A stretch of DNA of 64,000 nucleotides from positions 4,960,001 to 5,024,000 of the forward strand of contig OY730169.1 in NCBI GenBank assembly GCA_963422465.1, written 5' to 3'. Position numbers and translations under genes: made by a program. Of this stretch, positions 1,158-60,255 are shown one piece after another. This DNA comes from Lichina pygmaea (taxonomy: Eukaryota > Ascomycota > Lichinomycetes > Lichinales > Lichinaceae). The stretch's first letter is position 1; each line of letters opens with the position of its first letter. The notes under the pieces were generated by a model. It saw nothing but the letters and a program-made list of their open reading frames with translations, did not search any database and was not told the origin of the DNA.

Positions 1158-4100
1158 ATGAAAGACACAAAGCTGACACTTCTCCAGTATAATGTGCAAA
1201 AAAGCCAATCAGTCCAAGAGCTACTGCTAGCAACCTCAGCTCTCCAAGAGGTGGACATTATTGCACTTCAAGAGCCCTGGAAAAACCCTCACCTAGAAAC
1301 AAGCACTTCAACTGTTTTCTCTTCCTTTCTTCCTCTCTACTGTTCAGAGATTGGCAGAACACTTTTTCTTATTAATACAAATCTGAAACTCTCTTCTCTT
1401 TATCCTACCTTCTGGAATAAAGACTTTGTTTCTCTTGAAATCTACTTGGAAAACTCTTCTACTTCTCTTTGGGTACATAATCTCTACTTCACCCCATCAA
1501 GTCAAGAAAACTACACAGAGGCATCAGAAGCTCTTCTCTGTTTACTCCAAAATGCTTTACAAGAACAAGGACAACATATTCTTCTCACAGACTCAAATCT
1601 TCACCGCCCAGACTGGTCAAAGAAAAGAAGACTGTACTCTGAGACTGCAAACAAGTTTCAAGACCTAATGAAAGATTTAAATCTGGATTTAGCTATTGCA
1701 CCTTTCACCCCTACCAGAGCAAGATCTTTTTCTGAAAAACCATGTTCTGCTATTGATCTGTCTTTTATTTCTTCTTCTCTTTCTAACTCTCTGATTTTCT
1801 CCAAAGTGGCTCTTCAGTTCTTTCATGGGTCTGACCACAGACCTGTACTAACCTGCCTGGACCTGGATCCTCCAAGGAAAATCTGGAAACCAGAAAGAAA
1901 CTGGAGAACACTGGACTCAAACCTTGCAAGAGTAGAGTGTGAGAAGCTACACCTGCCCTTCCACTTCCAAGACAAATATAAAGTGGATGAGTACTTGGAG
2001 TATCTTGACAACTTTCTCCAAAAAATAGCAAGCAAATCCACACAGCTCCAGAAGCGATCTGGCCACTCAGTCCCCTGGTGGAATCAAGAGATCCAAAACA
2101 AGGTTAAAGAGGAAAGAAGAGTAAGAAGAAAAGTGCAAAAAAGACAAGCAAGTCAAGAGGAACTTGAGCAAGCAACTAAGCTCAAGAAAAAGGCAGTCAG
2201 AGATGGAAAACAGAACACTTTCAGACACCAAATCCATGAGCTGGCCAGCTCTTCAAAGTTCTGGAAGCTTGCAAAGTGGGGAAGGTCCAAAGCCAACAAG
2301 ACTCCTGATCTTCCTCTGGTTCCTGACCTGGAAACACAAGAAGGAATAGCCAAAACCTTTGAGGAAAAGACTAAAGCCTTCTCACAGCAGTTCTTTCCAA
2401 AAGCTCTAGTTCCAGAACCAGGCTCAGAAAGCTCCCAGACTATCTCTGAGATACAGCTCTCCCAGGAGGTAACATGTTGGAGCAAATTCTGGCCAAGAAG
2501 AAACCTTTCACAGCAGGAGGGAGAGATAAGCTGCCAAATGGATTTCTGAGAGCTCTGGGGCCTAGGTTCTGCCAAGCTCTAGCTATTCTGACTTCAACAT
2601 GCTGGAAACTGGAGTACTTCCCTGAAAGATTTAAGAGTGCAAAAACAGTCTGCTTGAGGAAACCTGGCAAGGGAACCTACAATCAAGCTAAAGCCTGGTG
2701 CCCTATAGCTTTGCTAAACACAACAGGCAAGCTGATGGAAGCTATTGCTGCAGCCAGACTAAGCAAGATAGCAGAAGAAGCTGGACTATTGCCAGATATC
2801 CAGATGGGCTTTAGGAAAGGAAGATCCACAGAAGCAGCACTTTTTCTTCTAACCTCCCAAGTGGAAAAAGTCTGGAAGGAAGGCATGGTTGCATCCCTAC
2901 TCTCACTGGATATCTCAGGAGCCTATGACAGAGTTCTCCCCAAGATACTACAGCAAATTCTGAAAAGAAAAGGAATACCTGCCTGGCTAGCTTCCTGGAT
3001 CTACTCCTTCTGTGATAAGTGCTCTACCACTCTTGTCTTTGATGATTCTGAGTCTTGTTCAATTCCTATTCATTGTGGAGTTCCTCAAGATTCTCCATTA
3101 TCCTCTATTCTTTTTCTATTCTACATTTCTGAATTGCATGAGACTGTGCATACTCCCTCTTCTGGTGTATCTGCCCTGGGGTTTGCAGATGATACAAATC
3201 TGCTTGCTTTTGGTCACTCCTTGAAAAGTAACCTTCTGAAGTTAAAGAACACACACCTCAAATATCTATCATGGGCTGCAAGACATGGAATGGTCTTCTC
3301 TCCTGAGAAATATGAAATACTTTATTTTTCCAGAAGAAGATCAGACAATCTTCAGCTCAAGCTCAGACTGGGGAATGTGATTCTCAAACCAAAAGAAGAA
3401 GTGTGAGTACTTGGAGTGTACCTAGATGCAAAGCTCCACTGGCACAAACACCAGAGGATTATTCTTCAAAAAGCACAGAAAGCACTCTCTTCTCTTTCTA
3501 GAACTTCCTATTCTACTTGGGGCTTTCCAGTTCACACATCATGTCTGGTGTACACTGCTATACTGAGATCTCTACTGAGCTATGCAGTGGGGATCTGGTT
3601 TAACCCTCTAAGAAAATCCTCCAATATCTCTTCTCTTGTTTCATTTCAAAACAGATGCCTAAGACTTATTGGGGGTGCCTTCAAAGCCACTCCTTCTTTT
3701 CTATTAGAGAGTGAGCTTTTTCTTCTACCTCTAGACCTATACTTTAAATTTCGCACTGCCTGTTTTCTTTCTTCTATTCAAAACTCCCCTCTCAAATACT
3801 TTCTTGACAGTATCTTTTCCACTATTTCCAGCTATACCTCTCTCTTGAAGAAACCTTTAAAGGAATCCTCAACTATCTCTCCTAAGTGGAAATTCACTTG
3901 GTTAAGTCAAATAACTACTAACCAGGCTAGTTCAAAGAAAGAAGTACAAAAGCTCTTTACTAAAGAGTGGGAAGACCAATGGGAAGAGAAGAAAAGAAGA
4001 AGCTATCCAGGCTGGCAGACTTTCTGTCAAAAGCCACACAAAAACAATCTGAAGCTCTACAAAGAGTTACAGAAAGCTGAGGCAAGTCTGCTACTGCAAA

Positions 4101-5412: not shown

Positions 5413-6377
5413 TGTTGCGGTCTGTACCATGCTGTCCTAACCAAGTATAGGATTAAGGGCAAGATGCAGAAGGCAGGTTGGTTCTCGCAGGAGAGGAGTG
5501 TCAAGGAGCACAAAGGGGTTTGGTGGAATGTGGTGGTGGTGACACCTGATCAATAGCTTTGTACAAAAGGATTGTATTGAAGTAGATCTAGTTGTCTGGA
5601 TCACAACATAAGTTGAAGATGATTGTTCTATAAGGGAACTATCACCAGAATATATATTGCTGGCCTGTCAAGATTTTTTTTTTGATTTGATTCTTACACT
5701 GTTTGTAGCTTTACAGCCATGCAGATCTTCCAGCTAATAGTGAACTTCTTCAGAAAACCTTTAAAGGAATAAAAACTGAAGACAGGGAGGTGACTAGAAA
5801 GTGTAGCAAAAGGAAATCTTGTAGTGTCTGGTAGGAAAAGCTTCTAGATGTTGGAGTGTGAATAGTGAAGTTTGAAAGCCAGATTAAATTGGTTTAGTCT
5901 TTTCAAAGACATAAACCAGTACAGAAACTTCTGTAGAAGCTCTGGGTTTGAAATAATAGTAGTGAAATCTTGGGGGTTTGGCCTGTCAAGATAATTGAGG
6001 TTGTCTTGACAGTCTCAATGTCAAGATGGGTGAGATTGTCTTGACGTGTCATGCACTCTGTGTCAAGACAGGTGAGATTGTCTTGACAGTCCCACTATGT
6101 TATGCACCCTGTGTCAAGACTGGTGAGATTGTCTCAACATGTCATGCATACTGTGTCAAGATGGGTGAGATTGTCTTGATGCTTCCTGCACCCTGCATCA
6201 AGACTAGTGAGATTGTCTTGATGCTTCATGCATGCTGTGTCAAGCCACCTGTGTTTGTTTCAACAGTCACGTGACTCTTTGTCAGTTTGGTCACTTGACT
6301 TTTCCATGGTGTCCTCTTGTCTGGCCTGTGGCCTGTCTGCTTATAAATAAGTGGCTCTCTTCCCAGAGATTGTAACA
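5413..6377 (-). repeat. Subtype-B LTR of chromovirus 1 (3' LTR), holding a LINE fragment
   Basis: On the plus strand the LTR reads TGTTGCGGTC to TTGTAACA. It holds the GTCAAGAC/GTCTTGAC repeat array (5,990-6,250), GTCACGTGAC near 6,268 and a plus-strand TATAAATA near 6,343. A LINE 3' fragment sits inside at 5,675-5,980. Confidence 0.9.
5675..5980 (-). mobile_element. 5'-truncated LINE fragment inside LTR
   Basis: This LINE 3' end lies on the minus strand, with T-rich start and TTTGATTTGATTCTTACACTG. It is flanked by a 13-bp TSD, GGCCTGTCAAGAT (5,662-5,674 and 5,981-5,993). The duplicated LTR sequence shows it landed after chromovirus 1 was in place. Confidence 0.93.
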
Positions 6378-6490
6378 CTATCCTCCTCTCCTTCATTCAT
6401 CATCCTGATGAATTCTTGAGTATGTCTGCAAGATCATGTGCCTCTGCTTACTGAAGACAACTGGCAGCCCAGATCTGTGATTATAACTTT

Positions 6491-6736
6491 GTGTTGCTTG
6501 CTCTGTGTGACTTCTGTGTTTTGAACCACAAGCCCTGTTTCCAAATATCTGACAACAACAATAAGTTGAAGTGCGCTGAATGCACTCATCATGGGAAGTC
6601 CTGTGTGTCACTTTCTTGGGAGTTGTTGAACATGACCCAAGATAATCTTCACAAGGATGTGGCCACTGAAGAGGTGACACGTGACACACTCTTCAAACAG
6701 CTTGCTGCAGTGCAAGTTTGTCTGTCTCAGAAGTGA
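6491..6736 (+). CDS. Antisense accessory ORF of chromovirus 1: Zn2Cys6-like protein, subtype B
   Basis: The ORF is on the strand opposite to gag-pol, between the 3' LTR and the pol end. Its product has six cysteines spaced C-X2-C-X6-C-X11-C-X2-C-X6-C, which fits the Zn2Cys6 binuclear cluster of fungal regulators. Loops read VLNHKP and THHGKS. A leucine-rich helical stretch follows. Four elements in the window keep this ORF in the same place and orientation. The function is unknown. Most Zn2Cys6 proteins have a more basic first loop, so DNA binding is an inference. Confidence 0.6.
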   Translation: MLLALCDFCVLNHKPCFQISDNNNKLKCAECTHHGKSCVSLSWELLNMTQDNLHKDVATEEVTRDTLFKQLAAVQVCLSQK

Positions 6737-7301
6737 AAGATTCTTGAAGGTGCTGAGAGTCAAGCGAAGAAGAAGCTCCAGTGCCTTGTTGCTGAAATGG
6801 AGGTGGATGGTGAAGACTTGGCAGTGACAGTTATTGATGTGTCTGCGCTGCAGGCCAAGCTGTTCAGTCCTGCTTCCACTGGAACTGCTGCAGGAGGAGC
6901 TGGCAGTTTGTGAGGTTTCTAAGTGGTTCCCAGGTATTTTCCAAGTCTGGGTAGTTTTTCCACTTGACAAGGTATCACTGACTTTTTCTCTTCAGGATAT
7001 GTTCAACCTTGAATTCCTGTTCTTCCTCTGGTTGGTAACAAAATGTTTCCTGCAAGGGTGTGCTCTGGTCAGCTAATTCAATCATTAAGATGTGAAAGTT
7101 TAGATGTACCTGAGCGTCTCTCAGTAGTCGCAGTCTGACATTGACTGGTCTGGTTCTTTCTTCGACTGGAAATAGTCTGACTTTGACATAGTCCAGTTTC
7201 TTTGTTCTTGGTTTCTTGACTTTCTAATTTTTTGTGAGGAGGTAGACTTTATCCCCCTTCTTCAGCTGAGGTGCTATTTTCGATTTTTTGTCTATTTGGC
7301 A

Positions 7302-10258: not shown

Positions 10259-10938
10259 TGTTGCGGTCTGTACTGTACTGTCCTATCCGAGTATAGGATT
10301 AGGGCGAGAGGTGGAAGGCGGGTTGGTTCTTGTAGGAGAGGAGTGTCAAGAAGTGCGAAGGGGTTTGGTGGAACATGGTGGTGGTGACACCTGATCAACA
10401 GCTTTGTACAAAAGGATTGTATTGAAGTAGATCTAGTTGTCTGGATCACAACATGAGTTGAAGATGATCATTCCATAAGGGAACTATCACTGGACTATAT
10501 AGTGCTCAGTTCGTGAGCATAGTGAGCTCTGCTCACTTTGCTTACTTGGTGAGATCAGTGAGCTCTGCTCACTTTGCTCACAGTTCATGCACACTGCGGT
10601 GAGCTGGGTGAGCTCTGCTCACTTTGCTCACTTGTTCATGCATGCTGTGGTGAGCTGGGTGAGCTCTGCTCACTTTGCTCACTTGTTCATGCACACTGCA
10701 GTGAGCTGGGTGAGCTCTGCTCACTTTGCTCACTTTTCATGCACGCTGCGGTGAGCTGGGTGAGCTCTGCTCACTTTGCTCATGTTTGTGCATATGCATG
10801 CTGTGGTGAGCACCCTCTGGTTTGTCTCACCGGTCACGTGACTGGTTCCTGTGTCACGCTGCCTGGTACTTCTGTCCAGTATCCTGTCTGCTGCTTCCTG
10901 TGAGTATATAAAGACTGTGTTCCTCCTAGTTCGTAACA
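10259..10938 (-). repeat. Subtype-A LTR, chromovirus 2 (3' LTR)
   Basis: It starts TGTTGCGGTC and ends CGTAACA on the plus strand. A minus-facing TATA (CTATATAG, 10,495-10,502) and a plus-facing TATATAAAG (10,905-10,913) enclose a tandem array of GTGAGC/GCTCAC half-sites (10,505-10,800) and CACGTG (10,835-10,840). Confidence 0.92.
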
Positions 10939-11053
10939 CTATCCTCCTCTCCATCTTTCATCATCTTGATGAAATCCAGTCATGCCTCCAAAGTCACATG
11001 TGACTATTAGCTGAACTCAGCTTGCTGCTCAAATCTACAATCAGGGTTTTGTT

Positions 11054-11296
11054 TTGTGTACACCCTGCGACTTTTGTGTTCTTCGTGGTCATCCGTGCTT
11101 CCAGATATCAGAAGAAGATGATAAGTTAAAATGTGCTGCGTGCACTTGGCGCAGAAGGTCTTGTGTCTCTGTGTCCTGGGAATCTCTGAACATGTCCTGG
11201 GACAACCTCTGTGAGGATGTGGCCACTGACAAGGCAACACACAACACACTCTTTGAACAACTTGCCACAGTGCAGGCTTGTCTGTCTCAGAAGTGA
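11054..11296 (+). CDS. Antisense accessory ORF of chromovirus 2: Zn2Cys6-like protein, subtype A
   Basis: It has the same position and strand as the copy at 6,491, with the same cysteine spacing C-X2-C-X6-C-X11-C-X2-C-X6-C. The loops differ (VLRGHP and TWRRRS, the second more basic). The plus-facing TATA of the adjoining LTR lies about 145 nt upstream of this ATG. The region downstream converges on the end of pol. Confidence 0.6.
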   Translation: MCTPCDFCVLRGHPCFQISEEDDKLKCAACTWRRRSCVSVSWESLNMSWDNLCEDVATDKATHNTLFEQLATVQACLSQK

Positions 11297-11423
11297 AAGG
11301 TGTTAGAGGGCGCTGAGGTCTGTGCGAGGCAGAAGCTTCAGTGCTTGGTGAAAGAGATGGAGTTGGATGGTGAGGATTTGACTTGATCAGTTATTGATGT
11401 GTCCCTCCTGCAGGCCAAGCTGT

Positions 11424-12488
11424 TCAGTCCTGCTCCTGCTGAAACTGTCGCAGAAGAAGCTGGCAGTTCGCAAGGTTCTTGAGTGGCTCCCAGGTATTTT
11501 CCGGGTCTGGGTATCCTTTCCACTTGACAAGGTATTGCTGACTTTTCCTAGCCAGGATCTGTTCAACTTCAAACTCTTGTTCTTCTTCAGGTTGATAATA
11601 GAATGTTTCCTGCAAGGGTGTGCTCTGGTCAGCTGGTTCAATCATCAATATATGAAAGTTTGGATGGACTCTGGCATCCCTTGGTAGTTGTATCTTGATG
11701 TTGACTGGTCCTGTTTTTTCTTCGACTGAAAATAGTCTGACCTTGATGTTGTCAAGTTTCTTTGTCTTTGGTTTCTTTGTTTTCCAATTTCTTGTGAGAA
11801 GGTAGACTTTATCCCCCTTCTTTAGCTGAGGTGCTATTTTTGATTTCTTGTCTATTTGATGTTGCATTCTTTCTGAGGTCTCTTGAAGGTAGTCGCTCAT
11901 CATTGTGTGTGTTTGTTGTAGGAGCTTGTCATGTTGGAGTGCTTTCTCCGTGTTTGGTGAAGCTCTGCTTGGCATCCTGATGTTCACATGTTGTCCAAAA
12001 TTGGCAAAAAATAGTGATTCCTTTGTTGAGTCTGATCTGTGCTGGTTGATTGGCAGCTGTGCCACCAGTAATAACTGTACCCAATTGCTGTGGGTCTGGT
12101 TGATGTAATGCTGTAAGTAAGTCTCCAGAACTTGGTTTGCTTGCTCTGTCTGGCTGTCAGTTTGTGGGTGATAGGCTGTAGACATTTTGGGTTTTGTTCC
12201 TATGGCTGCACTGATTGTCTTCCAGTAGTTGGATGTGAAGAATTTGTCTCTGTCTGTAATGATCATGATCAGAACTCCGTGGTCTCTGACCAATCTGTCC
12301 AGTAAGAGGTGTCCCAACTGTTCTGCTGTGTGGGTCTTCTTGAATAGAACCACTATTAGATATTTTGTGAATCTGTCCACTATCACCATAATCAAGTTGT
12401 AGGTGATTCCTGTGACTGGGTCTTTGGACTTGGGTAGCTTCGTGATGAAGTCTATTGACACGTCTTCCCACAGACCTCTCGGTATCAT
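11424..12488 (-). mobile_element. Chromovirus 2 integrase and chromodomain part
   Basis: A 354-codon open stretch covers the integrase core (SIDFITKLPKSKDP, VDRFTKYLIVVLF, ITDRDKFFTS), the GPF-like C-terminal region and a C-terminal chromodomain (QYLVKWKGYPDPENTWEP). Chromodomains in this clade direct integration to modified chromatin. This is the longest open piece of pol in the window. Confidence 0.92.
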
Positions 12489-16279: not shown

Positions 16280-16925
16280 TGTTGCAGTCTGTACTGTACT
16301 GTCCTATCTGAGTATAGGATTAGGGTGAGAGGTGGAAGGTGGGTTGGTTCTCGCAGAAGAGGAGTGTCAAGGAGTGCGAAGGGGTTTGGTGGAATGTGGT
16401 GGTGGTGACACCTGATCAACAGCTTTGTACAAAAGGATTGTATTGAAGTAGATCTAGTTGTCTGGATCACAACATAAGTTGAAGATGATCATTCCATAAG
16501 AGAACTATCGCCAGACTATATAGTGCTCAGTTCATGAGCATAGTGAGCTCTGCTCACTTTGCTCACAGTTCATGCACACTGCGGTGAGCTGGGTGAGCTC
16601 TGCTCACTTTGCTCACTTGTTCATGCACGCTGCGGTGAGCTGGGTGAGCTCTGCTCACTTTGCTCACTTGTTCATGCACACTGCAGTGAGCTGGGTGAGC
16701 TCTGCTCACTTTGGTCACCTTTCATGCACGCTGTGGTGAGCTGGGTGAGCTCTGCTCACTTTGCTCACTTGTTCGTGTATATGCATGCTGTGGCAAGCAC
16801 CCTCCGGTTTGTCTCACCAGTCACGTGACTGGTTCCCGTGTCACACTGCCTGGTACTTCTGTCCAGTATCCTGTCTGCTGCTTCCTGTGAGTATATAAAG
16901 ACTGTGTTCCTCCTGGGTCGTAACA
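16280..16925 (-). repeat. Subtype-A LTR, chromovirus 2 (5' LTR)
   Basis: It has the same layout as its partner. The likely primer site lies just outside at 16,270-16,279 (plus-strand GTCTTCAAAG). The inverse TTGAAGAT/C lies inside at 16,479-16,486, about 30-35 nt from the minus-facing TATA at 16,516-16,523. Confidence 0.92.
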
Positions 16926-16930
16926 CCATT

Positions 16931-18652: not shown

Positions 18653-19399
18653 TTAAGAGTGTCCAAATGCAAGCAGATTTGTATCATCTGCAAATCCCAG
18701 AGCAGAAACACCAGTAGTAGGAGAATGTACAGTCTCATGAAGTTCAGAAATATAGAATAGAAAAAGAATAGAAGACAAAGGGGAACCTTGGGGGACTCCA
18801 CAGTGAATAGGAATAGAAGAGGACTCAGAGTCATCAAAAACTAGGGTGGTGGTACGTCTGGTACAGAAAGAGAAGATCCAAGAAGTTAGCCAGAGAGAGA
18901 TTCCTTTTCTCTCCAGAATCTTTTGAAGAATCTCTGGGAGAACTCTGTCATATGCTCCTGAGATGTCCAGAGAAAGTAGAGATGCAACCATGCCTTCTTT
19001 CCAGACTTTTTCCACTTGGGAAGTTAGAAGGAAAAGTGCTGATTCAGTTGATCTGCCTTTCCTGAACCCCATCTGGATTTCTGGCAAGAGTTTAGCCTCT
19101 TCTGCTACCTTGCATAGTCTGGCTGCTGTAATAGCTTCTATCAGCTTGCCAGTTGTGTTTAGCAGAGCTATAGAGCGCCAGGCTTTAGCTTGGTTATAGA
19201 TTCCCTTGCCAGGTTTTCTTAGACAGACTGTTTTGGCATTCTTGAATCTCTCTGGAAAGTATTCCAGTCTCCAGCATGTTGATGTGAGAACAGCTATAGC
19301 TTGGCAGAACTTGGGACCCAGAGCTTTCAGAAATCCATTTGGCAGCTTGTCTTTTCCTCCTGCTGTAAAAGGTTTCTTCTTGTTCAGAATTTGCTCCAC
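18653..19399 (-). pseudogene. LINE B ORF2, reverse transcriptase part
   Basis: 248 codons with all main RT motifs intact, including GFADDTNLLAFG. It is separated from the C-terminal part by the frame break near 18,655. Confidence 0.88.
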
Positions 19400-23061: not shown

Positions 23062-23204
23062 CTACCTTCCTCTCTTTCATTCATCATCTTGATGAATTCT
23101 TGAGTATGTCTGCAAAATCACGTGCCTCTGTTTACTGAAAGCAGCTGTCAGTCCAGATTTGTGATCACAACTTCCTGTCACTTACTCTGTGTGACTTCTG
23201 TACT

Positions 23205-23606
23205 TTGAATCACAAGCCCTGTTTCCAAATGTCTGACAACAACAATAAATTGAAGTGTGCTGAATGCACTTGTTGTGGGAAGTCCTGTGTGTCACTTTCT
23301 TGGGAGTTGCTGAACATGACCCAGGATAACCTTCGTGATGATCTGGCTGCTGATGAAGCCAAGTGGGATACTCTTGTTGAGCAGCTTACTGAGCTGCAGG
23401 CTTGTGTATCCCAGAAGTGGAAGGTTCTTGAAAGGGCCAAGGGTCAGGTGAAGAAGAAGCTCCAATACCTTGTTGCTGAGATGGAGGTGGATGGTGAGGA
23501 CTTGTCGGTGACAGTCATTGATGTGTCCACACTGCAGGCCAAGCTTTTCAGTCCTGCTCCTGTTGGAACTGTCACAGAAGAAGCTGGCAGTTCACGAGGT
23601 TCTTGA
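23205..23606 (+). CDS. Antisense accessory ORF of chromovirus 3, longest copy
   Basis: 133 codons from this ATG, and the open frame runs further upstream to include the first cysteines (CDFCTLNHKPC from about 23,191). The complete C-X2-C-X6-C-X11-C-X2-C-X6-C pattern is present. Downstream is a heptad-like leucine and lysine-rich segment (LVEQLTELQACVSQKWKV and VKKKLQYLVAEMEV) that could form a coiled coil. The ORF ends in an acidic-to-serine tail (TEEAGSSRGS). By comparison with chromovirus 2 its 3' end lies over the end of pol on the other strand, a convergent overlap of roughly 60 bp. The start codon is uncertain. Confidence 0.62.
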   Translation: MNHKPCFQMSDNNNKLKCAECTCCGKSCVSLSWELLNMTQDNLRDDLAADEAKWDTLVEQLTELQACVSQKWKVLERAKGQVKKKLQYLVAEMEVDGEDLSVTVIDVSTLQAKLFSPAPVGTVTEEAGSSRGS

Positions 23607-29564: not shown

Positions 29565-31553
29565 AACTTCTATAGAAGCTCTGGGTTTGAAATAATAGAA
29601 GTGAAATCTTGAGAATTAAAGGGAGCTTGCTGTCTTTGACTTGAATACAGAGAGCATGAAGAGGTGATATGTTTCACTGTCTCTTCTGCTTGACCGCAGA
29701 CACATAAAGAGGTAGGAAAATCTGGAACTCCAGCTCTGAATAGAAAACTTGCCAGGCTAATTCTCCCAGTTCTGGTTTGTAGTAGTAGACTTGCCTCAGC
29801 TTTCTGTAGCTTTTTGTAGAGCTTCAGATTGTTGTGGTGAGGCTTTTGACAAAACACCTGCCACCCATAGTAGCTTCTTCTTTTCTTCTCCTCCTATTGG
29901 TTTTCCCACTCTTTAACAAAGAGTTTCTGTAGTTCTTTCTTTGAACTAGCCTGGTTAGTAGTTAATTGGTTTAACCAAGTGAACTTCCAATAGGGGGAGA
30001 TAGGTGAGGATTTCTTTAAAGGTTTCTTCACAGAAGAGGCATAGTGGGAGATATTAGAAAAGATATTATCCAGAAGTGTTTTCAGAGAGGTTTGAATAGA
30101 AGAGAGAAAACAGGCTGTGCGAAATTTGAAATAGAGATCTAGAGGTAAAAGAAAAAGCTCACTCTCTAATAAGAAAGATGGAGTGGCTTTGAAGACACCT
30201 CCAATAAGTCTCAGGTATTTGTTCTGGAATATGCTAAGAGAAGAGATATTAGAAGATTTTCTTAGAGGATTGAACCAGATCCCCACAGTATAACTCAGTA
30301 AAGATCTGAGTATTGCAGTGTACACAAGACATGATGTGAGGACTGGGAAACCCCAAGTAGAATATGAAGTTCTAGAAAGAGAGGAAAGTACTTTCTGAGC
30401 TTTTTGAAGAATAATTCTCTGGTGTTTGTGCCAGTGGAGTTTTGCATCCAGGTACACTCCTAATACTCGCACTTCTTCTTTTGGTCTTAGAATCACATTC
30501 CCCAGTCTGAGCTTAAGCTGAAGATTGTCTGATCTTCTTCTGGAAAAATGAAGTATTTCATATTTCTCAGAAGAGAAGACTATTCCATGTCTTGCAGTCC
30601 ATGATAGACATTTGAGGTGTGTGTTCTTCAACTTCAGAAGGTTGCTTTTTAGAGAGTGTCCAAATGCAAGCAGATTTGTATCATCTGCAAATCCCAGAGC
30701 AGAAACACCTGTGGAAGGAGAGTGTAGTTTCATAAAGTTCAGAAATGTAAAATAGAAACAGAATAGGAGATAAAGAGAAACCTTGGGGAACTCCACAGTG
30801 AATAGGAATAGTAGAAGACTCAGAGTCATCAAACACAAGAGTGGTAGAACAACTGGTGCAGAAAGAGAGAATCCAGGAAGATAGCCAGAGAGGAATTCCT
30901 TTTCTCTCTAGGATTTGTTGGAGGATCTTAGGTAGAACTCTGTCATAGACTCCTGAGATATCCAGAGAAAGTAGAGATGCAACCATGCCTTCCTTCCAGA
31001 CTTTTTCCACTTGGGAAGTTAGTAGGAAGAGTGCTGATTTAGTTGATCTTTCTTTCCTAAAGTCTATCTGGATTTCTGGCAAAAGTCTAGCTTCTTCTGC
31101 TACCTTGCTTAGCCTAGTTGCTGTAATAGCTTCCATCAGCTTGCTAGTTGTGTTTAGCAAAACTATAGAGTGCCAGGCTTTAGCTTGGTTATAGTATCCT
31201 TTACCAGGTTTTCTTAGACAGACTGTCTTTGCATTCTTGAACCTCTCTGGAAAGTATTCCAGTCTCCAGCATGTTGATGTGAGAACAGCCATAGCTTGGC
31301 AGAACTTGGAACCCAGAGCTTTCAGAAATCTATTTGGCAGCTTATCTTTTCCCCCTGCTGTGAAAGGTTTCTTTTTGTTCAGGATTTGTTCCACTTCTTC
31401 AGCAGTAACTTCCTGAGAAAGCTGGATCTCTGGAGTACTCTGGGAACTCTCTGTACTTGGTTCTGGAACAAGTGCTTTGGGGAAGAACTGGGCTGAGAAT
31501 ACTTTTGTCTTCTCCTCAAAGGTTTTAGCTAGTCCTTCTTGACTCAAGCAATG

Positions 31554-31951
31554 TAGACCAGCTGACAGTTCAGTCACGAGTTTGACTCAGGCTGGTGCAT
31601 GGTGCTGACAAGGTTTGTACATCTTCAGGTTTGATCTCTGGGAAGTATGTACCTTGGGGGCTTGTTATTGGTGAACAGAGCCCAGCACACTTGTACTTGT
31701 GTGTCTGAGCTAGTAGCTAGCAAGACACAGCAGTGCAAGAGCTGTAGCTAGCAAGGACACTAGCCTCAGAAGAGAAGTGATGTCAGAAGCTAGTTGCCTG
31801 ACTGGGTGCTTAGTCAGTTAGATCCTGACTAGGCAGGTGGGTGCAGTCACACTTATCTATCACTAGTACAGAGATGTCAGGCACTAAGCCCAGACATAGT
31901 AGTCTTTTGACTCAGTTCCACTTTAGCCTACTCTGTACAGCACTGCACAAC
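31554..31951. repeat. Dispersed repeat with inverted motifs, right part of copy B
   Basis: This continues the unit split by LINE C: a tRNA-like stretch near 31,556-31,605 with box-B-like GAGTTTGACTCAGG, the inverted motif ACTAAGCCCAGACATA (31,883-31,898), then the 55-bp flank. Beyond it is the 8-bp duplication AGGCAGTG (31,952-31,959). Confidence 0.65.
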
Positions 31952-33500: not shown

Positions 33501-34130
33501 TGTTGCGGTCTGTACTGTACCGTCCTATCCGAGTATAGGATTAGGGCGAGAGGTGGAAGGCGGGTTGGTTCTCACAGGAGAGGAGTGTCAAGGAGTGCGA
33601 AGGGGTTTGGTGGAACGTGGTGGTGGTGACACCTGATCAACAGCTTTGTACAAAAGGATTGTATTGAAGTAGATCTAGTTGTCTGGATCACAACATGAGT
33701 TGAAGATAATCATTCCATAGGGGAACTATCACCAGACTATATAGTGCCCAGTTTGTGAGCAGAGTGAGCTCTGCTCACTTTGCTCACTTGGTGAGATAAG
33801 TGAGCTCTGCTCACTTTGCTCACTTTTCATGCACGCTGCAGTGAGCTGGGTGAGCTCTGCTCACTTTGCTCACTTTTCATGCATGCTGCGGTGAGCTGGG
33901 TGAGCTCTGCTCACTTTGCTCACTTTTCATGCACGCTGTGGTGAGCTGGGTGAGCTCTGCTCACTTTGCTCACTTGTTCGTGCATATGCATGCTGTGGCG
34001 AGCACCCCCTGGTTTGTCTTGCCGGTCACGTGACCGGTTCCTGTGTCACGCTGTCTGGTACTTCTGTCCAGTATCCTGTCTGCTGCTTTCTGTGAGTATA
34101 TAAAGACTGTGTTCCTCCTGGGTCGTAACA
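33501..34130 (-). repeat. Subtype-A LTR, chromovirus 4 (3' LTR)
   Basis: The array at 33,750-33,990 has more units than the partner LTR. It carries GGTCACGTGACCGG near 34,023-34,036 and a plus-facing TATATAAAG near 34,097. Confidence 0.92.
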
Positions 34131-34245
34131 CTATCCTCCTCTCCATCTTTCATCATCTTGATGAAATCTGGTCATACCTCCAAAGTCACGTGCGACTGTT
34201 AGCTGAACTCAGCTTGCTGCTTAAATCTGCGATCAGGGTTTTGTT

Positions 34246-34488
34246 TTGTGTACGCCCTGTGACTTTTGTGTTCTCCGTGGTTGTCTGTGCTTCCAGATGC
34301 CAGGAGAAGATGATAAGTTGAAATGTGCTGCGTGCACTTGGCGCGGAAGGTCTTGTGTCTCTGTGTCCTGGGAATCTTTGAACATGTCCCGGGACAACCT
34401 CTGTGAGGATGTTGCCACTGACAAGGCAACACATGATGCACTCTTTGAACAACTTGCCACAGTGCAGGCTTGTCTGTCTCAGAAGTGA
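34246..34488 (+). CDS. Antisense accessory ORF of chromovirus 4: Zn2Cys6-like protein, subtype A
   Basis: Same strand, place and cysteine spacing as the copy in chromovirus 2, with near-identical loops (VLRGCL, TWRGRS). One loop position has gained a cysteine. The helical part NMSRDNLCEDVATDKATH follows. Confidence 0.6.
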   Translation: MCTPCDFCVLRGCLCFQMPGEDDKLKCAACTWRGRSCVSVSWESLNMSRDNLCEDVATDKATHDALFEQLATVQACLSQK

Positions 34489-34615
34489 AAAGTGTTGGAG
34501 GGTGCTGAGGTCTGTGCGAGGCAGAAGCTTCAGTGCTTGGTGAAAGAGATGGAGTCGGATGGTGAGGATTTGACTTGATCAGTCATTGATATGTCCCTCC
34601 TGCAGGCCAAGCTGT

Positions 34616-35653
34616 TCAGTCCTGCTCCTGCCGAAACTGTCGCAGAAGAAGCCAGCAGTTCGCGAGGTTCTTGAGTGGTTCCCAGGTATTTTCTGAGTCT
34701 GGGTATCCTTTCCACTTGACAAGGTATTGCTGACCTTTTCTAGCCAGGATCTGTTCAACCTCAAACTCTTGTTCTTCTTCAGGTTGGTAATAGAATGTTT
34801 CCTGCAAGGGTGTGCTCTGGTCGGCTGGTTCAATCATTGATATATGAAAGTTTGGATGGACTCTGGCATCCCTTGGTAGTCGTATCTTGATGTTGACTGG
34901 TCCTGTTTTTTCTTCGACTGAAAATAGTCTGACCTTGATGTTGTCAAGTTTCTTTGTCTTTGGTTTCTTTGTTTTCCAATTTCTTGTAAGAAGGTAGACT
35001 TTATCCCCCTTCTTTAGCTGAGGTGCCATTTTCGATTTCTTGTCTATTTGATGTTGCATTCTTTCTGAGGTCTCTTGAAGGTAGTGCCTCATCATTGTGT
35101 GTGTTTGTCGTAGGAGCTTGTCATGTTGGAGTGCTTTGTCTGTGTTTGGTGAAGCTCTGCTTGGCATCCTGATGTTCACATGTTGTCCAAAATTGGTAAA
35201 AAATAGTGATTCCTTTGTTGAGTCTGATCTGTGCTGGTTGATTGCCAGCTGTGCCACCGGTAATAACTGTACCCAATTGCTGTGGGTCTGGTTGATGTAA
35301 TGCTGTAAGTAAGTCTCCAGGACTTGGTTTGCTTACTCTGTCTGGCCATCAGTTCGTGGGTGATAGGCCGTAGACATTTTGGGTTTTGTTCCCATGGCTG
35401 CACTGATTGTCTTCCAGTAGTTGGATGTGAAGAGTTTGTCTCTGTCTGTAATGATCGTGATTGGAACTCCGTGGTCTCTGACCAATCTGTCCAGTAAAAG
35501 ATGTCCCAACTGTTCTGCTGTGTGGGTCTCCTTGAATAGTACCACTATTAGATATTTTGTGAATCTGTCCACCATCACCATAATCAAGTTGTAGGTGATT
35601 CCTGTGACTGGGTCTTTGGACTTGGGTAGCTTTGTGATGAAGTCCATTGACAC
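34616..35653 (-). mobile_element. Chromovirus 4 integrase and chromodomain parts
   Basis: Chromodomain QYLVKWKGYPDSENTWEP close to 34,650-34,720, the C-terminal integrase region to 35,257, and the core (SMDFITKLPKSKDP, VDRFTKYLIVVLF) at 35,333-35,653. Confidence 0.9.
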
Positions 35654-40090: not shown

Positions 40091-40634
40091 TGTTGTGGTC
40101 CGTACTGTACTGTCCTATCCGAGTATAGGATTAGGGTGAGAGGTGGAAGGTGGGTTGGTTCTCGCAGGAGAGGAGTGTCAAGGAGTGCGAAGGAGTTTGG
40201 TGGAACATGGTGGTGGTGACACCTGATCAACAGCTTCGTACAAAAGGATTGTATTGAAGTAGATCTAGTTGTCTGGATCACAACATGAGTTGAAGACGAT
40301 TGTTCCATAGGGGAACTATCACCAGACTATATAGTGCCCAGTTTGTGAGCAGAGTGAGCTCTGCTCACTTTGCTCACTTTTCATGCACGCTGCGGTGAGC
40401 TGGGTGAGCTCTGCTCACTTTGCTCACTTTTCATGCACGCTGTGGTGAGCTGGGTGAGCTCTGCTCACTTTGCTCACTTGTTCGTGCATATGCATGCTGC
40501 GGTGAGCACCCCCTGGTTTGTCTCGCCGGTCACGTGACCGGTTCCCGTGTCACGCTGTCTGGTACTTCCGTCCAGTATCCTGTCTGCTGCTTTCTGTGAG
40601 TATATAAAGACTGTGTTCCTCCTGGGTCGTAACA
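40091..40634 (-). repeat. Subtype-A LTR, chromovirus 4 (5' LTR)
   Basis: 544 bp with a contracted half-site array (40,345-40,480). It differs from the partner mostly by C/T and G/A changes at CpG sites. Confidence 0.92.
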
Positions 40635-53934: not shown

Positions 53935-54041
53935 GGGATCGGCACCACCAAAACCACAACAACCACCACCAGCATCGCCAGCACCATCAACAACAACAGC
54001 AACAGCAACAGCAACAACAACAGCAACAACAACAGCAACAA

Positions 54042-54078
<37 letters not shown>

Positions 54079-58443: not shown

Positions 58444-60255
58444 GGCGACCCCGGAAGTGAGCCACCTCCCCCTAGTGAGCCACTCGCCAAAATCTACCGG
58501 TTGAGCGACTTGATCATGAAAATAGTTGTAGACAACCACAAATGAATTAGATTTGGAATTCAAATAGGCAGTCTTCAAATCTAGCTATAGTAGTAGCTCC
58601 CACAGAAATTTGAGCTTATCACTGTGTTGCATGTTGCTGATTGTCAGCCCTTTGCTGCTTCTCCTCCTCAAGTGCCCTCATGATGTTCTCGATATTTGAG
58701 AATTGGGTGTTTGGACCTACCATGACTTGACGCTGTGTAGGTTGCCCCTCCAGCTCCCTAACCCGTGCCTCAAGCATCTTAATGCACTTAGTATGCTCTG
58801 CTTGGAGTACAACAGCCTCCTCAAGTGCCTTGCGTGTTTTGTTGAAGAATGCCTGACATCTCTCCCCAGGGAATCCATCCGTAGAAAGTTGTGCAGCAAC
58901 CTCAGCAAATTAAGCTGGCTTCCGGGGGGTCTCAACCTCCATTGTTGTACTATTCCGAGAACGTTTGCGGGGTTGGGGAGATAGTGACTGCTGGTCTTGA
59001 GAGTGTGCCAGTACCTGGGATGAGTTGATGACAGATTGGGGGTTGTATGGCACTAAACCTGTGGCTCTCCACCCTGCCCGTATGACTCTTGTGATCAGGC
59101 CTTCCTCCCGAGCATGATGGTAGCATTTGACAAAGCGCCTTTTCTTGACAGGAGCTGCATTATCAAGGATAGCAAGCTCAGAGATTTGCTTGCGGTAGTG
59201 GCTTTTTACCGCAGAAAAACAACTCAGATCCAGAGGCTGCAAGACATGGGATGAGTGTGGAGGAATGTAGACTACATGGACGTTATTCTGCTTGCAAATC
59301 CATTGGAATTCCACTGTAGTATGGCTTCCATGTCCATCAAGTAGAAGCATCCGTGGCTGTTCCCCCCGCCTGGTTTCTGGCAAAAAAAGCTCATTCAACC
59401 AGTTGATAGCAACATGGTTTGCAGTCCAGCCACGGTCTGATGTGGTATAGATCCAGTCTGGCACCTCCTCATGCGTAAACCAGCTGGTTTGTGCTGCCTG
59501 TCCTTTGAAAATAACAAGAGGACGAGTCTTTGTTTCAGCAGCAGAGATTGTCTCCAGAAAGGACACCCACTCTTGATTCCCAGGCATTTTCTTGTATGTC
59601 TGCTTCCTGGAGGAGTCTCCAATCACCTGGCTGTTCGTACAAGTCCCTAGAGCTATCCCAGTCTTGTCCATGTTCCAGATATCCTGGTGTTTGATGTTGT
59701 TCTGGAGTTGCATAGTCTTGAACCGGTGGAAGAAGTTGTTAAGAATGTCTGGATGGGTGTTATCAATCCTAGAGGATATAATAGGCCTTCCAATGATTGA
59801 GGCTATTGATGGATGACACTGAATGAAATTCCGCAGCCATTTGTTGCCAAGATCCGTAGTGTCTCCATTTGCACGTAGGATTTGAGTTGCCATATCTCGG
59901 GCAAAACTATGGGAGGGGGGGTGTCCTGTTGCTTCCTGCTCAAGGATCCATGTGACCAGGTACTCCTCCTGGTAGGGAGTCAAGCGCCGCTCAGGTTCAT
60001 GGGCAATTGCTCGTGATGGCCGACCCTTCATGCGTCGACCAAGAGTGGCTCGTGAGATGTTGTACGCAGTTGCTGCAGCCCGGATTAAGCTGAAATGACC
60101 AGCTTCCAGATCCTCAATGGCCTCCTGAATAGTCTCCTCAATAGAATCACTATTGTTTGGCGCCATAGCGTTGATAATTACTACATTTTGTGGCATTAAT
60201 GTGGTGGGGTTACCCGGTCGCTAGATTTTACGAGTGGCTCACTAGGGGGGGCGCC
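58444..60255 (-). mobile_element. pogo/Fot1-like DNA transposon
   Basis: About 1.8 kb. Terminal inverted repeats: CTAGTGAGCCACTCG lies at 58,472-58,486 and in inverse near 60,230-60,244, with the match extending inward to AAAATCTA. Outside these, GGCG/CGCC edges adjoin TA on each side (58,442-58,443 and 60,256-60,257), the TA duplication expected for this family. The left end carries an extra AGTGAGCCAC, a partial repeat of the terminus, so the exact left end is uncertain. Both flanks read TACGTA, so the target was one of the local TACGTA palindromes. Confidence 0.85.
58619..60196 (-). pseudogene. pogo/Fot1-like transposase with one in-frame stop
   Basis: 428 codons are open from 60,196 to the TAA at 58,910-58,912, and the same frame then stays open to a TGA at 58,619-58,621. 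The stop is best read as CAA changed to TAA. The N-terminal psq-type helix-turn-helix (about residues 15-60, ISRATLGRRMKGR), CENP-B-like second DNA-binding domain (about 68-130) and DDE_1 catalytic domain are all visible, with NMDKTGI, LLLDGHGSH and PHSSHVLQPLDLSCF giving the acidic triad. The part after the stop has a leucine-rich helix (EEAVVLQAEHTKCIKMLEAR), common at the C-terminus of fungal members. The catalytic core is whole, so the stop removes only the tail. It is likely a young copy. Confidence 0.9.

Follow-up and report, generated by a model that had tools for sequence, protein, structure and literature searches.

An antisense gene under purifying selection in chromodomain-bearing Ty3 elements of Lichina pygmaea, and its possible role in element self-control

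Nested Ty3 elements and their third gene

The window, that is, the whole stretch of 64,000 nucleotides of Lichina pygmaea DNA analysed here (contig OY730169.1), contains nested Ty3 elements on the minus strand. Self-BLAST and inspection of the edges identified both LTRs in two of them, B1 and B2, and the sequence CTGGG found at the outer ends of both B2 LTRs is a 5-bp target duplication. Self-alignment suggests that A1 is an older A-type element that hosts B1 and resumes at about position 16928. A Pfam scan of B1 and B2 showed that pol terminates in the C-terminal domains SH3_Tf2-1 (PF24626) and Chromo (PF00385), so the term 'chromovirus' used in an earlier note on this DNA was correct; in the A elements, frame reading showed that pol closes with the same kind of sequence. 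The features of the elements and of the antisense frames described below are as follows.

10259..10938, minus strand: 3' LTR of B1, with TG...CA ends (self-BLAST and edge inspection)
16280..16925, minus strand: 5' LTR of B1 (self-BLAST and edge inspection)
33501..34130, minus strand: 3' LTR of B2 (self-BLAST and edge inspection)
40091..40634, minus strand: 5' LTR of B2 (self-BLAST and edge inspection)
10939..10952, minus strand: B1 polypurine tract, GGAGAGGAGGATAG on the minus strand, adjoining the 3' LTR (identified by position and composition)
11424..12488, minus strand: B1 integrase C-terminal region at the pol end, SH3_Tf2-1 and chromodomain (Pfam)
10982..11482, plus strand: B1 antisense frame, decayed, six-Cys region 11066-11164 (ATG at 10982 in frame with the listed ORF, 166-codon gene elsewhere, Cys pattern)
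6422..6922, plus strand: A1 antisense frame, decayed, six-Cys region 6506-6604 (sequence, Cys pattern)
23106..23606, plus strand: A2 antisense frame, decayed near the start and open from there to the end, six-Cys region 23190-23288 (155-codon open stretch, Cys pattern)
34174..34674, plus strand: B2 antisense frame, decayed, six-Cys region 34258-34356 (sequence, Cys pattern)

Other mobile sequences lie in the window as well: a LINE-like element with endonuclease and reverse transcriptase ORFs (1158-3406, plus strand), further reverse transcriptase fragments on the minus strand (18653-19399 and 30681-31577), and a transposase ORF of 428 aa with HTH_Tnp_Tc5 and DDE_1 and without an internal stop (58910-60196, minus strand). 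The window also encodes an MTHFR whose best PDB matches are the Chaetomium structures 8uy1 and 8uy2 (E near 1e-124; 3e-57 for the next match), which suggests a filamentous ascomycete as host.

The earlier note had described four elements, each with a small ORF on the plus strand. Such a frame is real at all four places, but the ORFs listed were only fragments started by GTG or TTG, and they are decayed pieces of one 166-codon antisense gene. In better-preserved copies this gene begins with an ATG about 44 bp from the 3' LTR and ends within the pol (chromodomain) frame, and it forms a third gene of the element, running against gag-pol so that the two meet at their tails. The ORF had been placed clear of pol, whereas the end of the gene runs into pol, with an overlap of 35-89 bp among the 16 copies that were readable; in B1 the shared stretch is 11424-11482. 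The chromodomain frame could be traced into the gene in 16 of 23 full-length copies. Eleven of these overlap it by 56 bp, two A copies by 35 and 50 bp, and three B copies by 89 bp. In two of the 23 (L023 and L033) the pol frame terminates 55 bp short of the antisense gene, and in five the script picked another, longer frame, which makes it uninformative for those copies.

The four copies of the window are really two pairs, A (6422 and 23106) and B (10982 and 34174), and do not count as four independent witnesses. When the genome (32.47 Mb, 8 contigs) was searched with an A fragment and with a B fragment, at least 150 matches were obtained with each, and identity among the matches listed was at least 75% to A and at least 81% to B. 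Since A and B differ by about 30% and the listed identities exceed the similarity between them, we took the two match lists as separate sets; A and B are two old subfamilies. We fetched 40 A and 40 B places, mainly from matches without stops (27 without and 13 with stops for A; for B, all 40 stop-free across the 80 residues matched), so the sample is not random. A smaller set, of 17 A and 6 B copies that start with ATG and run for 166 codons, came from a filter that required the Cys motif, which makes the invariance of the cysteines across those 23 copies circular. With anchoring that did not use the motif, all 80 fetched copies aligned across 498 bp with no indels and more than 80% identity, a result favoured by the picking of copies from full-length matches. 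Anchored in this way, 39 A and 36 B copies of the 80 kept the ATG; the copies open throughout, ATG included, numbered 18 in A and 6 in B.

Coding constraint on the antisense frame

The comparison of A with B gave a dN/dS of 0.16-0.18 for the frame as a whole and of 0.11-0.12 when only codons 2-145 were counted, far below the value of about 1 that the earlier note had set against its proposal of a real antisense gene once under selection. The 18 A and 6 B open copies yielded pS 0.614, pN 0.182 and dN/dS 0.16, while all 40 A against all 40 B yielded 0.18 for the whole frame and 0.12 for codons 2-145; as A-B dS lies at 1.3-2, near saturation, these ratios are approximate and the exact values soft. 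Among codons invariant within both subfamilies (the set of 17 and 6 copies), synonymous changes numbered 38.5 at 62 sites and nonsynonymous changes 31.5 at 214 (Fisher P 3e-12). As a control, the other five frames were read over codons 2-146 of the same set, and four of them gave a ratio above 1. The fifth, on the minus strand, gave 0.36 with a mean of 6.8 stop-bearing codons; it shares third positions with the antisense frame, so an echo of the signal is expected there. In 2000 neutral simulations the minimum ratio was 0.45, as compared with 0.27 observed, and 23 of the 2000 runs remained stop-free.

In codons 147-166, which overlap pol, dS fell to 0.15-0.18 and the ratio was near 1, while dS was about 2 elsewhere, as it should be if those bases are held in place by pol. 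Within subfamilies dN/dS was higher (0.56 in A, 0.30 in B), as expected if decay after insertion is mixed in. From an A-B dN/dS of about 0.12 outside the stretch shared with pol, we conclude that the antisense frame is a coding gene for a 166-aa protein under purifying selection. The idea of a chance or by-product frame, held open as the complement of the pol end, has in its favour that the gene does overlap pol; it is refuted by the extent of that overlap, merely 35-89 of 501 bp in the 16 readable full-length copies, and by the location of the low dN/dS outside it. The same constraint bears on a role of the antisense transcript as RNA, either as a source of dsRNA or small RNA or through transcriptional interference, with the ORF mattering little. 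Antisense transcripts of transposable elements are documented in Blumeria hordei, where the parts of the study seen judge them to be without meaningful peptides (PMC10648671), and such transcripts are also discussed for plant aORFs (PMC7264820, in part). Strong constraint at the codon level, as measured by dN/dS, disfavours this explanation here and leaves it very improbable as an account of the gene, although both roles could coexist.

The earlier note had argued for past selection from the retention of cysteines in decayed copies. Selection stands, on the A-B dN/dS, but that argument for it does not: within subfamilies the Cys columns were retained at 0.987 (A) and 0.983 (B), and the remaining non-CpG columns at 0.969 (A) and 0.989 (B). 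The retention of cysteines thus reflects recency, not selection, and we rejected it as evidence. Between A and B, the cysteines agreed at six of six positions and their neighbours at 16 of 27 (P=0.067, not significant alone), which is no more than suggestive. In the broken copies that have a start (26 examined), 26 of 27 stop positions fell at codons that are mostly CGA in the open copies. This is the pattern of CpG-type decay of these repeats and suggests that the stops in the gene arose mainly by CpG deamination. Arginines in decayed copies frequently read Cys, His, Gln or Trp.

The cysteine region and the LTR U3

The spacing C-X2-C-X6-C-X11-C-X2-C-X6-C was present at all four plus-strand places, as the earlier note had stated. 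The exact spacing, searched as a DNA pattern, matched five times in the window (0.00 expected in shuffles); four of the matches are the elements and the fifth, at 53972-54070 on the minus strand, is a TGC-repeat stretch. The third ORF listed (23205-23606) misses cysteines one and two, as its TTG lies downstream of them (23190-23201). In the 166-aa protein the six cysteines occupy residues 29-61, and codons 35-37, between Cys2 and Cys3, carry fixed differences between A and B.

GAL4-type Zn2Cys6 domains have the spacing range C-X2-C-X6-C-X5-12-C-X2-C-X6-8-C. The spacing thus agrees with that consensus, as had been claimed, but the Pfam domain Zn_clus (PF00172) was not matched: the profile search proposed in the earlier note gave no match in 13 members of the family (E up to 5) or in the four window fragments (E up to 1), and none of the 27 Zn_clus matches in the genome fell at antisense-gene places among the matches listed. 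When the family was aligned by hhalign with 17 Zn_clus domains taken from this genome, all six cysteines were paired at a probability of 74%, a score equalled by 1 of 150 shuffles with fixed cysteines and by 0 of 150 shuffles without. 'Zn2Cys6-like' is therefore a fair working description of what the spacing and alignment suggest, short of established membership. The likeness would be accounted for if a GAL4-type domain had been captured from a fungal host, a claim about origin that is compatible with the regulatory role considered below. The exact spacing and the hhalign score speak for it, while the lack of Zn_clus matches and a weaker, partial likeness to DUF3716 as well speak against it, and we regard it as rather doubtful; with Zn_clus unmatched and the Cys region unmodelled, the name 'captured GAL4-type regulator' is unproven.

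AlphaFold placed a helix at residues 55-117 of the A2 fragment, with a block of pLDDT 65-89 at residues 61-110, in a model that was poor overall (mean pLDDT 53.5, pTM 0.30, Cys part below 50); the B2 fragment alone gave no usable model, with a Cys region pLDDT below 50. The protein is thus predicted to consist of a six-Cys region followed by a long helix.

No credible family for the antisense protein was found in Pfam, NCBIfam or PDB. Membership of DUF3716 (PF12511) was rejected, with a single match among 13 members (E 0.055, at 13.8 bits where the cut-off is 22) and an hhalign probability of 22% against five DUF3716 domains, partial and reached by 2 of 150 shuffles. Hits to Pfam zf-PHD-like, below its cut-off in 4 of 13 members (best E 0.0089), and to the NCBIfam primosomal protein N' (2 of 13, best E 0.00078) were taken for chance. 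Both hits of the PDB profile search were at chance level, Tektin-2 with E 0.49 and a designed protein with E 1.4. Outside this genome, 34 viral-contig and 46 genome-contig pattern matches in viral and prokaryotic collections gave no confirmed relative.

A different mobile element of the genome (L093 27-1779, C2:3860326-3863481) carries plus-strand ORFs of the Clr5 and rva_4 integrase type and a minus-strand Cys-rich DUF3716 ORF, the stop of which almost touches that of the integrase piece. L091 has a similar DUF3716 ORF and L094 an open piece just under the DUF3716 cut-off. The first of these is perhaps an independent antisense Cys-rich gene in a fungal transposon.

Upstream of the gene, the LTR-terminal GTAACA starts 49-50 bp before the ATG, which leaves about 44 bp between LTR and ATG. 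An inward-facing TATA(A/T)A was found in U3, 70-85 bp upstream of the ATG, in 78 of the 80 fetched copies (40 of 40 B, 38 of 40 A). On the gag-pol side, deeper in the LTR, the TATA-like palindrome CTATATAG was present in 77 of 80. The longer form ACTATATAGT occurred in 19 of 19 A as compared with 14 of 30 B in an earlier copy set. A tandem array, with units of 42 bp in A and 50-51 bp in B, is located between the two TATA-like sites.

10905..10911, plus strand: TATA-like site in the B1 3' LTR, facing the antisense gene, 33 bp from the last base of the LTR (sequence; same place in fetched copies)
10547..10782, no strand assigned: B1 U3 tandem array of GTGAGC-N3-GCTCAC inverted repeats (sequence; fetched copies)
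16543-16774, no strand assigned: 5' LTR counterpart of the B1 array (sequence)
6019..6244, no strand assigned: A1 U3 tandem array, A type, 42-bp unit, GTCAAGAC...GTCTTGAC arms (sequence; fetched copies)

CACGTG, which lies between the array and the inward-facing TATA-like site, was kept in 71 of 80; it sits within a palindrome of the E-box type and is possibly a site for a host bHLH factor. As copies of the same LTR, the 5' LTRs (e.g. 16280-16925) should carry an outward-facing antisense TATA-like site.

Of the 40 copies of each subfamily, 39 A but no B copies had A-type inverted repeats, and all 40 B but no A copies had B-type repeats. Both patterns were composed after inspection of the copies, and a fairer test is the pattern-free count of inverted repeats, which exceeded that of all 100 shuffles of the same sequence in 73 of the 80 copies (33 A and all 40 B); a stricter A pattern was matched by only 12 of 19 A copies. 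Judged from position and letters, the TATA-like sites and dyads are putative functional sites, and the tandem repeats could also serve host factors or an RNA fold. One alternative takes the dyads for RNA or DNA hairpins, used in packaging or cDNA synthesis, rather than for protein sites. It is consistent with the complementary arms kept in both subfamilies despite their differing letters, but the arms are short (6-8 bp), occur several times per LTR and lie between two promoter-like sites, and we hold it to be unlikely.

Tandem U3 repeats also occur in elements that have no such gene, and they might here be unrelated enhancers for host factors. The antisense protein would then be a nucleic-acid chaperone or a particle component, nucleocapsid-like or an accessory of packaging, whose cysteines bind zinc and RNA or cDNA. 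A small, Cys-rich, helical protein that Zn_clus does not match would suit such a role. On the other hand, a gene in antisense position with its own TATA-like site would be uncoupled in dose from Gag, and subfamily-specific repeats would be left unexplained, so we consider this role improbable, if less so than the hairpins.

A possible self-regulator and its counterparts

The antisense gene probably serves the control of the element's own activity. Starting from the gene, the selection on it, the positions of the TATA-like sites and the subfamily-specific dyads, all of which were observed, we infer the further steps (transcription, zinc, dimer, binding and the effect on gag-pol). The TATA-like site in the U3 of the 3' LTR would drive the antisense mRNA, and, as it lies about 33 bp from the LTR end and faces the gene, the mRNA would start near the border of the LTR and the polypurine tract. 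The protein would fold around zinc via its cysteines, dimerise via its helix, enter the nucleus and bind the LTR inverted repeats of its own subfamily, and this binding would set the level of gag-pol transcription; the protein may be a feedback repressor, or else an activator or anti-silencing factor. We give about an even chance to a dimeric self-regulator that is made from the 3' LTR and acts on the repeat arrays of both LTRs. The fixed differences in the Cys2-Cys3 loop (codons 35-37) parallel the differences between the A and B half-sites, in a comparison of two lineages only. More tentatively, and at somewhat less than an even chance, a dimeric zinc-cluster-like protein made from the antisense promoter may read the U3 array of its own subfamily, self-recognition co-diverging with its target.

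Antisense genes at this 3' position are already known, as partly seen sources describe, from the plant elements Grande and Retand and from Botrytis Boty with brtn. Like the aORF-3R genes, the gene described here is antisense to gag-pol and lies between pol and the 3' LTR with its end overlapping pol, and it is retained in many copies under coding selection (at least 150 matches per subfamily; dN/dS 0.12-0.18). The earlier note knew of no Ty3 chromovirus with a fungal Zn2Cys6-like protein. That statement calls for caution, since Boty-like elements of Botrytis cinerea are described with the antisense gene brtn (Zhao et al. 2011 Virology, as cited in other papers) and the Boty gag-pol has a CHROMO domain; the likeness described is that of an antisense gene. 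Boty is named among elements with additional ORFs (PMC7264820), and a Monilinia transcript resembles Pol and BRTN (PMC5987419), in the portions of these papers seen. Both Boty and the window elements are fungal, CHROMO-bearing Ty3 elements with an extra antisense gene; they are likened here by description and may prove to be the same family.

In plants, gene23 of Grande and the genes of RIRE2 and PvRetro13 (aORF-3R) lie antisense between pol and the 3' LTR, as here, and the relevant part of the review mentions no Cys6 motif for these plant-hosted elements; Grande has an antisense promoter, placed upstream of gene23, and a nuclear protein (PMC7264820). About half of the Retand elements combine, like the window elements, an antisense gene (TRP28, predicted to bind DNA) with family-specific tandem repeats; as far as the parts seen describe it, Retand differs in being a non-chromovirus plant lineage with another domain and with a long region between pol and the 3' LTR that holds the repeats, rather than U3 (PMC11963269). 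The word 'antisense' is absent from the main text of three papers on fungal LTR elements (PMC3248453, PMC5872316 and PMC11540331). In the open-licence literature we recognised no Cys6 antisense gene in a fungal Ty3 element, nor did we meet, in the parts seen, the combination of a Cys6-plus-helix protein, an inward U3 TATA-like site and subfamily-specific dyad arrays.

VANDAL elements are DNA transposons, and HBZ of HTLV is a bZIP protein. With its Cys6 region and predicted helix the window protein differs from HBZ, and no sequence relation is claimed. What HBZ shares with it, according to the passages of two papers, is an antisense gene, an antisense promoter in the 3' LTR, as proposed here, and a nuclear protein, as would be expected here (PMC7264820, PMC11963269). 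VANC anti-silencing proteins are related, element-encoded proteins whose targets are often tandem repeats that vary between related elements; in those Arabidopsis elements binding has been shown, whereas here it is conjectural (PMC5735166, in part).

Antisense genes located 3' in LTR elements are well described, and a 2020 review, in the part seen, gives their functions as still unknown (PMC7264820). In the elements described here, a stretch of about 1 kb holds the gene together with its likely promoter and a candidate target array, and it does so in two lineages that differ in their half-sites, so that the role of the antisense protein becomes a matter for a binding experiment. If co-diverging self-recognition is true, that of these chromoviruses would be the LTR-element counterpart of VANC, in fungi. 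If the self-regulator reading is right, fungal LTR elements would run a sequence-specific self-control comparable with VANC and HBZ.
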